From Candidatus Saccharimonadota bacterium (GTDB lineage: Bacteria; Patescibacteriota; Saccharimonadia; Saccharimonadales; Saccharimonadaceae): a stretch of DNA of 64,000 nt. Below the pieces are notes generated by a model, which did not search any database, was not told the DNA's origin, and saw nothing but the letters and a program-made list of their open reading frames with translations. A program made the position numbers and the translations under genes. Shown here piece after piece: positions 2,119-7,008 of this stretch (positions are counted from its first letter, which is position 1; the number at the start of each line of letters is the position of its first letter). The stretch covers positions 244 to 64,243 of the forward strand of contig DAICXK010000003.1 in NCBI GenBank assembly GCA_027312225.1, in the 5' to 3' direction.

Positions 2119-5100
2119 ATGGAAGTAATGGCAATAGACTTTCAGGCTCGCTACAATACTCTTAACAGTAACCAAAAGATGGCTGTCGATACCATCGACG
2201 GGCCTGTTATGGTGATCGCGGGGCCTGGTACCGGCAAGACTGAGCTGCTAGGCATGCGCGCTGCTAATATCCTCACCAAAACCGACACGTTGCCCTCGAG
2301 TATCCTCTGCCTTACCTTTACCGAAAGTGGAGCACATGCTATGCGCGAGCGCCTGGCGAGCATCATCGGCAAAGATGCTTACAAAGTCGCCATTCATACC
2401 TTTCACGGCTTTGGTACAGAAGTCATCAACCAACACAGCGAATTCTTCTATCACGGCGCGAACTTCCGACCCGCAGACGATCTGTCGAGCTATGAAATCA
2501 TCAAAAAGGTCCTTGACGAGCTAGATTACAGCAATCCTCTCGCCGGCAAGATGAATGGCGAATACACTCATATCCGCGATATCACAAGTAGCATCTCCGA
2601 ACTCAAACGAAGCGGCCTTACCAGCGACGAGCTACTGCAAGTACTAGACAGCAATGACATGGTGCTTGATGCCAGCGAAAACAAATTGCAGGCGGTGTTC
2701 GGGTCGAGGATCAGTGCCTCAACGCTTGCACGTCTTATTCCGGTGGCGAGCGAGATTGCTGATATCGCGCCTCCTGCGCTTCCTGGCGGCCTGACGCCTT
2801 TGTCTAACGTCATTGCGCTCAGTCTCGCCCATGCCGTCGATGAAGCCTCAAGTACTGACTCAACCAAACCGATTACCGCCTGGAAGAACCGTTGGATGGA
2901 AAAGAACGCTGACGGTAACCTTGTATTCAAAGACCGCAAACGCCACGAAAAGCTACGATCGCTCAGTTATGTCTATTTTCAGTACCTGGCACGCATGCAG
3001 GAAGCCGAGCTGTATGATTATGACGACATGATCCTTCGCGTTGTCCACGCCATGGAGGTGTTTGACGAGCTTCGTTACAACCTACAAGAAAAATACCAGT
3101 ACATCATGGTTGACGAGTTCCAAGATACCAGCCTGGCGCAGATGCGTATTTTAGATAATCTCACCAATAACCCTGCGCACGAGGGGACACCGAACATCCT
3201 TGTGGTTGGTGATGATGACCAGGCAATCTATAGTTTTCAGGGTGCAGACATCAGCAACATTCTCTCATTTCGCGATCACTATCGTGATGTCAAACTTGTC
3301 ACACTGGTCGACAACTACCGCTCCTCATCACCAATTCTTGAAGCATCACGCAACATTATCACGCAGGGTTCCGACCGTCTTGAACGGTACATCGACGAAC
3401 TAAACAAGACCCTCACGCCACACAAAAAGGGGACTGCCGCTGTCTCTCTACGCGTAGCGCCTACATCTGGTGACGAACGAGCGTGGATTGTGGATGAAAT
3501 AAAAACACGTATTAATCGAGGCGAAGACCCCGGGCAGATTGCCGTCTTAGCGCGCCGTCATCACGAAATTATCGCGCTGTTGCCATATTTTTCTGCCGCA
3601 GGCATACCTGTTGCCTACGAAAAAAGGGATAACGTTTTTGAAGTTGCACCCGTTCTTCTTGTCGAGCAACTCGCGCGCATCATTGTCTTATTCAAGGAGC
3701 AGCGCCTGCAAGAAGCCGACGCTCTATTGCCAGAACTACTCTCGCATCCAGCGTGGGGGGTAGCACCACAGGATCTCTGGAAACTCAGTGTCAGTGCCTA
3801 TGACAGCCGCACTCGCTGGTTTGATACAATGGCCACGACATCACAGTTCACTGCGTTTCACCGCTGGCTGACAGACCAAGTGGCGTCGTGCGCCCACCAG
3901 CCACTTGAATATATGCTCGATACGCTGATTGGCGCCCCAAATAGTACCACTGCTGAAGAAGAGACCGACGACACCGATGATGCATTTGCCGAGCCTGCAG
4001 CCGCCCCATTTAGGTCACCACTATATGATTACTTTTTTGGCGCTACTGCGCTCGCTCGCAATCCTGACGAATACCTCACTTACCTTGAAGCACTCCGGAC
4101 TATTCGCGCAGCACTACGCGACTATCAGACCGACACCGAACCGACACTAACAACATTCGTTGCCTTTGTCGACCTTTATCGTCAAACGGGTGGCGTTCTG
4201 ACTTCTGCCAGGCAAATTGGCAGCACTGCAACTTCAAGCGTTCAACTAATGAGCGCGCACAAATCAAAAGGCCTCGAATTTGACAGCGTGTACATAACGG
4301 GTGCCGTTGATTCAATGTGGGGCGAGCGAGTCCGCGGCAAGAGTCGCCTTATCTCGTACCCCGAAAACCTCCCGCTCAGCCCTGCCGGTGATTCACCCGA
4401 TGAACGTCTCAGGCTGTTCTTTGTTGCCGTCACGCGCGCCAAAAAAGAGCTCATTATCAGTTATAGTGATACGAACGACGATGGCAAGCCGTTCGAGCGC
4501 GCTGGCTTTTTGCTAGGACTCGGTGATCCAACACCCGTTCCACTGCGCACTGATTCTGCAGATACTCGTACCGACGCCGAACGACGCTGGTATGCTGATG
4601 TTGCCACACCCAACGAGGACTTGAAGGGGCTGCTTGCACCAATACTTGAAAAGTACAAGCTCAGCGCAACCCACCTTGGCAACTTCCTTGACGTGACGCG
4701 CGGAGGGCCACAGACATTCCTCCTCAATAATCTCCTCAGATTCCCTCAGGCCATGAATGCCGCCGCGGCCTACGGGTCGGCGATTCACGGCACGCTTCAA
4801 CGCGCTCATGCACATCTGACCGCCACTGGAAAGTACCGTGCCACTGAGGATATCATCCGTGATTTCGAAACCCTACTGGCTGATTATCGACTGGACGCAT
4901 CAACACGCGAGACGCTTCTTCAGAAGGGGATTGATGCGCTCGGCATTTTCCTGAAAGAGAAGTATCATTCGTTTGTGCCACATCAAAAATCAGAGCTTGG
5001 GTTTGCTAACCAGCAGTCAATCATCGATTCGGTACATCTCACCGGTAACCTTGATCTGGTTGACATCGATACTCAAACCAAGACGATGACCGTGACGGAC

Positions 5101-5457
5101 TATAAGACAGGGCATCCTGCGCGCGACTGGAAAGGGAAGACCGACTACGACAAGATAAAACTCCATCGCTACCGCCAGCAGCTCATGTTCTATAAACTAT
5201 TAGTTGAGCATTCACGTGATTACGGCGCATATTCGGTCGTAAAGGGCGTCCTACAATTTGTCGAGCCAACCAAAGATGGGCAGATCCTTGCCCTTGAGGA
5301 TGACTTTAGCGAGGCAGAACTAGACGAGTTCCGCCAATTACTCGTCGCGGTCTGGAACAAGATTATTACACTTGATTTACCTCCTGTCGATACGTACGAG
5401 CAGAACTACAAAGGTATCCTTGCGTTCGAGCGCGACCTCATTGACGGTAATCTCTAG
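2119..5457 (+). CDS. UvrD/PcrA-like ATP-dependent DNA helicase with C-terminal PD-(D/E)XK (RecB-type) nuclease
   Basis: Walker A GPGTGKTELL, DEFQDTS, GDDDQAIYSFQGA, LMSAHKSKGLEFDSV, VAVTRAKKEL; C-terminal LDLVDIDTQTKTMTVTDYKTG. Confidence 0.93.
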   Translation: MEVMAIDFQARYNTLNSNQKMAVDTIDGPVMVIAGPGTGKTELLGMRAANILTKTDTLPSSILCLTFTESGAHAMRERLASIIGKDAYKVAIHTFHGFGTEVINQHSEFFYHGANFRPADDLSSYEIIKKVLDELDYSNPLAGKMNGEYTHIRDITSSISELKRSGLTSDELLQVLDSNDMVLDASENKLQAVFGSRISASTLARLIPVASEIADIAPPALPGGLTPLSNVIALSLAHAVDEASSTDSTKPITAWKNRWMEKNADGNLVFKDRKRHEKLRSLSYVYFQYLARMQEAELYDYDDMILRVVHAMEVFDELRYNLQEKYQYIMVDEFQDTSLAQMRILDNLTNNPAHEGTPNILVVGDDDQAIYSFQGADISNILSFRDHYRDVKLVTLVDNYRSSSPILEASRNIITQGSDRLERYIDELNKTLTPHKKGTAAVSLRVAPTSGDERAWIVDEIKTRINRGEDPGQIAVLARRHHEIIALLPYFSAAGIPVAYEKRDNVFEVAPVLLVEQLARIIVLFKEQRLQEADALLPELLSHPAWGVAPQDLWKLSVSAYDSRTRWFDTMATTSQFTAFHRWLTDQVASCAHQPLEYMLDTLIGAPNSTTAEEETDDTDDAFAEPAAAPFRSPLYDYFFGATALARNPDEYLTYLEALRTIRAALRDYQTDTEPTLTTFVAFVDLYRQTGGVLTSARQIGSTATSSVQLMSAHKSKGLEFDSVYITGAVDSMWGERVRGKSRLISYPENLPLSPAGDSPDERLRLFFVAVTRAKKELIISYSDTNDDGKPFERAGFLLGLGDPTPVPLRTDSADTRTDAERRWYADVATPNEDLKGLLAPILEKYKLSATHLGNFLDVTRGGPQTFLLNNLLRFPQAMNAAAAYGSAIHGTLQRAHAHLTATGKYRATEDIIRDFETLLADYRLDASTRETLLQKGIDALGIFLKEKYHSFVPHQKSELGFANQQSIIDSVHLTGNLDLVDIDTQTKTMTVTDYKTGHPARDWKGKTDYDKIKLHRYRQQLMFYKLLVEHSRDYGAYSVVKGVLQFVEPTKDGQILALEDDFSEAELDEFRQLLVAVWNKIITLDLPPVDTYEQNYKGILAFERDLIDGNL

Positions 5458-5469
5458 ATATGCTATAAT
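5441..5469 (+). promoter_or_regulatory. sigma70-like promoter TTGACG-17-TATAAT
   Basis: TTGACG 5441-5446, 17-nt spacer, TATAAT 5464-5469, inside the 3' end of the helicase gene. Confidence 0.7.
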
Positions 5470-5576
5470 AAGAGGGTAGACGTATGAGAAGTGCGCACTC
5501 TGCCAAGCAATAACCATTGGTTGTTGGTGTACGCACATCTCCGTCTCGATTTTTGACAAGAGATAGTGCCCTCAGC

Positions 5577-5710
5577 GGCGCCACCTGGCATTCTAAACAC
5601 TGATACACCCCCTTCTTGCACCCCAGCACAGAAGAACACGATGATGTGTTGCAGCCTCGCCACCTCCCCCGGTGATTGGCTGTGAGCGGCGTCAGTGGCT
5701 AGGTGGCGCC
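5577..5710 (+). ncRNA. candidate structured leader RNA element of the 5753 gene
   Basis: GGCGCCACCT (5577-5586) exactly complementary to AGGTGGCGCC (5701-5710), helix extendable; inner hairpin AACAC-gatgat-GTGTT; upstream hairpins 5491-5536. Confidence 0.5.
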
Positions 5711-5752
5711 TTTAACCCCTTTAGTCCTACACACCTTGAAGGAGGTGATACC

Positions 5753-5917
5753 ATGGCCTGTACGCCATGTAGCAACCTGGGCTACAGCGGCTCGCGCTCC
5801 TGCAGTAACTGCAGCGGCACCGGTGAGACCGGCACCGCCCTGAGCGGGAAGAGCCGTTGCAGTACGTGCGCCGGAACCGGACGGCTTTGCCAGCAGTGCG
5901 GGAAAGCTGACGCGTAG
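5753..5917 (+). CDS. small CxxCxGxG (DnaJ-like zinc finger) protein, 54 aa
   Basis: MACTPCSNLGYSGSRSCSNCSGTGETGTALSGKSRCSTCAGTGRLCQQCGKADA; near-perfect SD AAGGAGGTGAT. Confidence 0.75.
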   Translation: MACTPCSNLGYSGSRSCSNCSGTGETGTALSGKSRCSTCAGTGRLCQQCGKADA

Positions 5918-6007
5918 TCAGGTTGAGATCGTCTCACCCCTGGGTGATTCGCAAAAAGGGCCTTTCATCGTATTCGATGATTGAAAAAGAGCGCACTATC
6001 TCTTGTC

Positions 6008-6057
6008 CATCTCACCGGTTTCATACATCCATGTGAACCCAGTGAGATGTTTTTGTT
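6008..6057 (+). terminator. intrinsic terminator
   Basis: CATCTCAC-cGGTTTCATacatccATGTGAACCca-GTGAGATG followed by TTTTTGTTT. Confidence 0.8.
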
Positions 6058-6069
6058 TGGTACAATATC

Positions 6070-7008
6070 ATGAGTATGAAAAATATATGGGAAGATCTAC
6101 CGCGTCCGTTCTTTATCCTCGCCCCTATGGAGGCAGTGACTGATGTTGTCTTTCGCCATGTCGTAGGGAAAGCTGCCACTCCCGATCTCTTTTTTACTGA
6201 ATTTACCAATGCGACCGGCTGGGTACATGCCGGCGACAAAGCTATTCGCGGCCGTCTCATAAAGACTGACGACGAACACCCCATTATCGCTCAGATCTGG
6301 GGTGGGGAAGCTGGCGACATGGAGCAGCTCGCCATGCATTGTCGTGATTTAGGGTATGACGGCATTGATATCAACATGGGTTGTCCTGCCAAAAGTGCCG
6401 TCAAATCTGGCGGCTCGGCCTTGATTCGTAATCCCGAGCTCGCCGCCGAGGCTATCGCGGCCGCCAAAACCGCCGGGTTGCCTGTCAGCGTCAAGACCCG
6501 CCTTGGTTATACGCACGTTGACGAGTGGCGCGACTGGCTAACACATCTACTTAAACAAGATATCGTCAACCTGACGATTCATTTGCGTACCAAAAAAGAA
6601 ATGAGCAAAGTACCTGCCCACCATGAACTTATCCCAGAAATTGTTGCCCTCCGTAATGAGATTGCCTCGCAAACCTTACTAACAATCAACGGCGACATTC
6701 GTGATCGTGCGCACGGCGAAGAGCTGGTGCGACAATATGGTGTCGATGGCGTCATGATTGGCCGTGGGATTTTTCATAATCCATTCGCGTTCGAGCATGC
6801 CCCTACGACCCACAGTAAGGAGGAGCTCCTCAGTCTACTACGCCTGCAACTCGATTTATATGATACATGGCAACCACAGCTCGGCCGACCATTCGAGACG
6901 CTAAAACGATTCTTCAAAATATATGTGCGTGATTTTCCGGGTGCCTCTGAACTGCGCGATCAATTAATGCAAACAAAAAGCACCGATGAGGTGCGTAAGC
7001 TTCTGTAA
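6070..7008 (+). CDS. dus: tRNA-dihydrouridine synthase
   Basis: APMEAVTDVVFR, DGIDINMGCPAKSAVKSGGSALI, TINGDIRD, DGVMIGRGIFHNPF. Confidence 0.93.
   Translation: MSMKNIWEDLPRPFFILAPMEAVTDVVFRHVVGKAATPDLFFTEFTNATGWVHAGDKAIRGRLIKTDDEHPIIAQIWGGEAGDMEQLAMHCRDLGYDGIDINMGCPAKSAVKSGGSALIRNPELAAEAIAAAKTAGLPVSVKTRLGYTHVDEWRDWLTHLLKQDIVNLTIHLRTKKEMSKVPAHHELIPEIVALRNEIASQTLLTINGDIRDRAHGEELVRQYGVDGVMIGRGIFHNPFAFEHAPTTHSKEELLSLLRLQLDLYDTWQPQLGRPFETLKRFFKIYVRDFPGASELRDQLMQTKSTDEVRKLL

Follow-up and report, generated by a model that had tools for sequence, protein, structure and literature searches.

A candidate family of large ornate dual-function RNAs upstream of dus in Saccharimonadaceae

Introduction

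Few classes of large ornate RNA are known in bacteria (GOLLD, ROOL and OLE), and their functions are largely open. GOLLD and ROOL have been described as prophage- and phage-encoded (PMC12286853). GOLLD is a large ornate RNA with one conserved and one less conserved region; tRNAs are sometimes found in its linker region, ribosome binding has been reported in pull-downs, and the RNA has been studied by cryo-electron microscopy (PMC12286853). ROOL and OLE are large structured bacterial RNAs, long enough for higher-order assembly (PMC12286853). Here, we analyze an RNA element in a stretch of 64,000 nucleotides (nt), referred to as the window, from contig DAICXK010000003.1 of a Candidatus Saccharimonadota bacterium (assembly GCA_027312225.1). 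The element lies between a helicase gene and dus, and we think it probable that it is an approximately 580-nt member of a new family of large ornate dual-function RNAs, GOLLD-like in architecture, and not a riboswitch leader.

An earlier note, made from the letters of the window, had read this locus as a transcript in which a 54-amino-acid CxxCxGxG protein is preceded by a long structured leader, and had offered riboswitch-like or thermometer-like control, or a dual-function RNA, as explanations. The leader-plus-open reading frame (ORF) view is too narrow. The dual-function option is the one that gains support. In hok mRNA, the ORF is kept silent by tac/fbi pairing of the 5′ and 3′ regions until 3′ processing.

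Results

The window comes from a metagenome-assembled genome (MAG), G000, of 760 kb and 97% completeness, in which the helicase gene, the RNA element, and dus share the + strand. A perfect 15-bp inverted repeat, missed by the earlier note, extends to 19 positions with one mismatch (Table 1). This helix, P1, surrounds the leader and the ORF and adjoins the terminator hairpin. The helicase–dus gaps of relatives repeatedly contain a long-range GACAGGAATAGTGC/GCACTATTCCTGTC-type helix with a bipartite terminator hairpin after it. For P1 and the hairpin in 16 genomes, the 32 pairs are 91.3% formed, and 26 of the 32 have a double-sided change. The covariation score is 0.482 versus 0.215, none of 500 shuffles reaches any of the five measures, and pairing drops to 29–45% in slid-structure controls.

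For a covariance model, R1, we used only the 3′ end of the element, comprising the P1 3′ strand and the hairpin, with the P1 5′ strand excluded. R1 matches are found in 52 of the 198 family genomes that form our sample, nearly always directly upstream of dus and mostly as a single copy (G094 and G024 are among the exceptions). R1 also matches other families of the same order; in the phylum sample, G617 alone gave a match beyond the order, and a weak one (E = 9.6e-5). A complementary P1 5′ strand is present 273–955 nt upstream in 40 of the 41 R1 loci tested, the exception being the weak locus L049. P1 partners also occur at loci outside the R1 training set, with new base combinations (L169–L174, L179), and the strand pairs in nonmodel loci and other families include GACAGGTGTGAT/ATCACACCTGTC, GACAGGCGTAAT/ATTACGCCTGTC, and GACAAGACGATTT/AAATCGTCTTGTC. 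In a separate observation, locus L118 of G024 has R1 matches at 133–201 and 690–753 upstream of one dus gene, apparently tandem RNA elements.

The RNA at 5476–6057 of G000 folds at −253.5 kcal/mol, compared with −194.7 ± 7.1 for dinucleotide shuffles (z = −8.25). The counterpart RNA of the same-genus relative G001 gives z = −10.8, and family members range from −3 to −17.5, with a mean of about −10. G001, an uncultured Candidatus Saccharibacteria MAG, has the same locus on contig CALMAK010000011.1 and gave the only convincing match when relatives were searched by plain DNA similarity. The flanking genes of G000 and G001 are 72.6% (helicase) and 78.3% (dus) identical. The ends of the RNA are conserved to 79.8% (promoter and 5′ hairpin), 93.3% (P1 5′ strand), and 92.4% (P1 3′ strand and terminator); the ORF with its Shine–Dalgarno sequence (SD) is 63.3% identical, and the leader interior, the least conserved and fastest-changing part of the element, 45.5%, with a 63-nt length difference.

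The ORF lies exactly where the earlier note had placed it. The ratio of nonsynonymous to synonymous substitution rates (dN/dS) between G000 and G001 is 0.42 in its frame and 1.8 and 1.1 in the other two frames, and values of 0.17, 0.01, and 0.49 were obtained for the ORFs from other pairs. By this measure, the embedded ORFs are under purifying selection. Regional identities and dN/dS taken together, the RNA frame and the protein are therefore constrained, and the leader interior far less so. The ORFs of family members encode 42–63 amino acids, are led by an SD, and are of at least two unrelated kinds, a Cys-rich zinc-ribbon-like protein (alignment A8) and a three-helix protein with an AGSxGxxARxA motif (alignment A7). 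In genus g18, L076 has a three-helix and L081 a zinc-ribbon ORF within surrounding stretches that are mostly 80–96% identical, and in genus g63, L060 and L069 differ in ORF type while their element ends are alike. A search for viral contigs carrying the zinc-ribbon protein found none; the three-helix alignment is too diverse for such a search.

The SDs of the element ORFs are unusually long. Their pairing to the 16S tail GGATTACCTCCTTTCT has a median of 7 Watson–Crick pairs (12 with G·U), versus 5 (6 with G·U) in a comparison set of 60 long window ORFs, which were scored generously. The 16S tail of Saccharibacteria is GGATTACCTCCTTTCT, and not the usual GGATCACCTCC, in four relatives (L182–L185, near 1501). 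A perfect anti-SD, GGATCACCTCCTT, was considered and rejected on account of this 16S end.

The same RNA is found in other settings. The elements of family f18 and L171 of family f31 are located between a PheT-like gene and an ABC transporter gene, both named by eye from sequence; L171–L173 have pheT and an ABC transporter gene as neighbors. An SD-led ORF of about 50 codons is retained in most elements at other loci. Because other families hold the same RNA with the same ORF kinds at other loci, the RNA and the ORF move together.

Thirty-one tRNA-like domains were found in the spacers and the f18 elements. Their bodies are good, several scoring 42–70 bits against the Rfam tRNA model. Nine of the 31 have anticodon loops of 6 or 8 nt, 10 more have A34 other than in ACG, many are without U33, and most are without an encoded CCA. 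These domains look like folds that may be kept for shape and not for decoding. Two CCA-bearing domains in distant spacers (L102, Cys; L106, Gly) may be ordinary tRNA genes. In L054 (G121), ARAGORN predicts three tRNA-like genes (Gly-GCC, Pro-GGG, and Val-TAC) within a possible closing helix, and the scan found no SD-led ORF. L053 has a tRNA match with an insertion at 600–703 (104 nt), beside a second, tRNA-Leu(CAA)-like body that lacks a long variable arm.

A second architecture was observed at the helicase–dus locus in about ten spacers, in which the R1 module is missing and a different 3′ module, GAGATTCAC...GCAGAACC (model R2), is present. They include L051, L057, L058, L060, L066, L067, L070, and L072, and several have a tRNA-like body. 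No spacer is positive for both R1 and R2, both ORF kinds occur in both architectures, and about one-third of the spacers are matched by neither.

The features of the locus are collected in Table 1. The promoter and the terminator of the earlier note are both borne out, the promoter exactly, and the terminator as a bipartite hairpin followed by five T's that is 92% identical in G001; it was overlooked by a simple scanner because its loop exceeds the size which that scanner allows. Together, they suggest one transcript of about 580 nt. The hairpin noted at 5491–5536 exists, but it is the upper part of a larger 5′ hairpin, which is too variable among relatives to be aligned for pair counts. The closing helix of the multibranch element is exact in G000 and has a plausible G001 counterpart, GGGCGCCGCC/GGCGGCGCCC, with one A-U to G-C double change, but it is not a family-wide element. 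The possible CACC..GGTG pairing across the SD recurs in G001 (CACCCGAGGAGGTG).

Table 1. Features of the RNA element and its flanking genes in G000 (positions in the window).
Feature	Position	Strand	Remarks
UvrD-PDDEXK helicase-nuclease gene	2119..5457	+	Upstream flank of the RNA element
Promoter, −35 TTGACG / 17 nt / −10 TATAAT	5441..5469	+	11/12 consensus positions, TG before −10; conserved in G001; overlaps helicase stop codon
5′ hairpin, then GATTTTT	5476..5547	+	Folding; promoter-to-hairpin stretch 80% identical to G001
P1 5′ strand	5555..5573	+	Core GACAAGAGATAGTGC at 5555–5569; inverted repeat and covariation
Multibranch element, closing helix 5577–5589/5698–5710	5577..5710	+	Possible counterpart in G001 only
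SD GAAGGAGGTGAT	5738..5749	+	Versus 16S tail GGATTACCTCCTTTCT: 8 Watson–Crick pairs, 12 with G·U
54-amino-acid ORF, zinc-ribbon-like CxxC / CxxCxGTG protein	5753..5917	+	dN/dS 0.42
P1 3′ strand	5989..6007	+	Core GCACTATCTCTTGTC at 5993–6007
Bipartite terminator hairpin CATCTCAC..GTGAGATG and T5	6008..6055	+	With P1 3′ strand, R1 match, E = 4.7e-12
dus (tRNA-dihydrouridine synthase)	6070..7008	+	Downstream flank of the RNA element

Matches to dus in 185 of the 198 family genomes provided about 90 upstream regions for comparison. The helicase-to-dus gap in these is usually 370–1660 nt, and members at this locus have a uniform orientation. The gap is almost empty in G006 (45–48 nt) and G111 (51–54 nt), and the G006 element (L174) is found elsewhere in the genome. 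A second small gene, of 60–105 codons, is often seen between the RNA terminator and dus (L050, L071, L088, L100, L103, and L076/L081). Several of its products share a (P)E(D/G)L(S/T/N)(Y/F/W)SA-like tail, such as ETPEDLSYSA, DPEGLSFSA, and DTPEDLNWSA; the one member checked has no Pfam match.

With Rfam 15, at gathering and E-value thresholds, the window and relatives gave only tRNA and weak tmRNA-like matches. The GOLLD, ROOL, and OLE models do not match the element or its relatives, and the T-box and riboswitch models, which the earlier note had proposed as a check, give no match at the gathering score, and a search of 5300–6200 relaxed to E = 5 is likewise negative for them. The tmRNA of the genome (97 bits) and its RNase P RNA are both on contig C21, away from the element, which excludes the element as either of these genes. 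No published report of this RNA was found in the open-access literature, and unpublished or subscription-only reports are possible. A set of 3161 candidates from human microbiomes has been published (PMC8040213), and was not compared candidate by candidate with this RNA.

Discussion

The genome comparisons demonstrate, at the level of sequence, a closed RNA frame that is structurally selected, encloses a selected miniprotein gene, and carries exchangeable cargo. The closed architecture, the covariation, the distribution, the coding nature of the ORF, and the cargo swapping are all demonstrated in this way, and these comparisons give strong support to the RNA class itself.

How does this family compare with described systems? 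Like GOLLD, it has a conserved frame and a variable part holding tRNA-like domains, although the G000 element has none. It differs from GOLLD in its chromosomal locus beside housekeeping genes, its selected small ORF, its GACAGGAATAGTGC-like P1 and bipartite terminator motifs, and the lack of an Rfam match, and the last of these distinguishes it from ROOL and OLE also. To our knowledge, there is no embedded interchangeable miniprotein gene in ROOL or OLE. Members in which a tRNA-like domain and an ORF occur together (L018, 1775–1846, 26 bits) recall tmRNA; however, the L018 score falls short of the cut-off of 47 bits, a separate tmRNA gene is present in the genome, and the element ORF is equipped with an SD and start of its own. 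In Bacillus, the T-box-controlled anti-TRAP (RtpA) is a CxxCxGxG protein of similar size behind a long leader. The likeness to anti-TRAP and DnaJ raised by the earlier note stays below the family cut-offs: the protein scores 11.4 bits against the anti-TRAP family NF058604 (NCBIfam cut-off, 65) and 13 bits against the DnaJ CXXCXGXG domain PF00684 (Pfam gathering score, 32.7), and it is replaced by unrelated three-helix types in relatives.

Several observations weigh against our interpretation. The P1 arms were initially picked as the best inverted repeats, which favors pairing; the R1-anchored test for the upstream strand answers this in part. No P1 partner was found at four further R1 matches, three of which have little upstream sequence (L111, L176, and L178) and one of which is a weak R1 match (L177). 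Compensatory changes in the interior of sister pairs are not clearly above column shuffles (22 for G000/G001, versus a shuffle mean of 15.2 and maximum of 23), so a shared interior fold is only a possibility; consensus energies of the interior do exceed those of shuffles (z = −5.9 to −16). The AlphaFold model of the three-helix protein is good (predicted local distance difference test score, pLDDT, 90.6), but a fold search with it against the PDB gave no convincing match, and the zinc-ribbon model is poor (pLDDT 48), so RNA binding by the miniproteins is a conjecture. The element of G000 is without any tRNA-like domain, and the several domains that reach 42–70 bits fit the Rfam tRNA model well. 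Lastly, the single transcript, with its start and end, is predicted from sequence.

Could the 54-amino-acid protein be the sole product of a regulated mRNA, with the leader acting as a riboswitch-, thermometer-, or attenuator-like control? The strong promoter, the long structured leader, the SD near structured RNA, and the purifying selection on the ORF are what such an mRNA would have, and the 5′ hairpin of G000 with its five T's resembles an attenuator. However, the leader evolves fastest, conserved elements lie on both sides of the ORF, and the helix that is conserved order-wide closes the whole transcript, ORF included. Furthermore, the RNA frame persists through changes of protein type, and the tRNA-like bodies and the lack of an Rfam regulator match are ill-suited to a single ligand-sensing leader. 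We consider a regulated mRNA unlikely, and the riboswitch, RNA-thermometer, and T-box leader options to be unsupported.

It is quite improbable, in our judgment, that P1 silences a small, possibly toxic ORF until 3′ processing opens the RNA, as in hok and other type I toxin–antitoxin systems, which share with the element an ORF of about 50 codons inside an RNA closed by long-range 5′–3′ pairing. In some members (L103, L112, L056, and L077), the P1 5′ strand could instead pair locally, but this alternative hairpin is not a general switch (mean score 12.8 vs. 11.2 for shuffled sequences). The encoded proteins are Cys/Gly/Ser-rich and zinc-ribbon-like or soluble three-helix types, polar and not hydrophobic membrane peptides, no antisense (minus-strand) promoter-like site was seen over the element in a scan of the consensus only, and the tRNA-like domains would be left unexplained; the usual single copy per genome is a further difference from hok. 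We give still less credence to the P1 arms as terminal inverted repeats of a mobile element or miniature inverted-repeat transposable element (MITE), with the locus as an insertion hot spot. The variable interior between inverted repeats, and the near-empty gaps of G006 and G111 with the G006 element elsewhere, are as expected for a MITE; but genomes generally have one copy, we saw no transposase gene, the helicase–dus elements share one orientation, and the conserved unit reaches past the arms, to the promoter and 5′ hairpin upstream and the covarying terminator hairpin downstream. The leader-only, hok-like, and mobile-element readings are less well supported than a large ornate dual-function RNA.

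For the biochemical role of such an RNA, we infer the following. The P1-closed RNA would be a selected product, a stable scaffold in which P1 keeps the two ends of the RNA joined and protects the 3′ one. Its interior would be a fast-evolving cargo bay, holding the small protein gene and its long SD, accompanied in many relatives by tRNA-shaped, mostly nondecoding domains. The miniprotein, a zinc ribbon or a three-helix bundle, would be translated from the RNA and bind RNA, perhaps its own, and the resulting ribonucleoprotein may use the long SD and the tRNA mimics to engage translation components. Both features point toward the translation machinery, with GOLLD as the nearest analogue. Such fast change inside a constant frame is suggestive of an arms race, with phages or the host cell as possible opponents. 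We put forward only tentatively, as a possibility with the odds against it, a chromosomally fixed, fast-evolving RNA–protein particle, in which a closed ornate RNA encodes its own RNA-binding miniprotein, carries tRNA mimics, and acts in conflict with phages or hosts or in ribosome sequestration by means of interchangeable cassettes.

A further class of large ornate RNA would be added by this family, one kept in many members of an order of ultra-small epibiotic bacteria. Its own miniprotein gene would give an experimental handle on the protein partner and the function of the RNA, and, with variable cargo in a fixed frame, the separate roles of the frame, the miniprotein, and the nondecoding tRNA bodies would be directly testable. 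Standard annotation misses this RNA gene of 400–1000 nt, in a lineage that has little genome space to spare.
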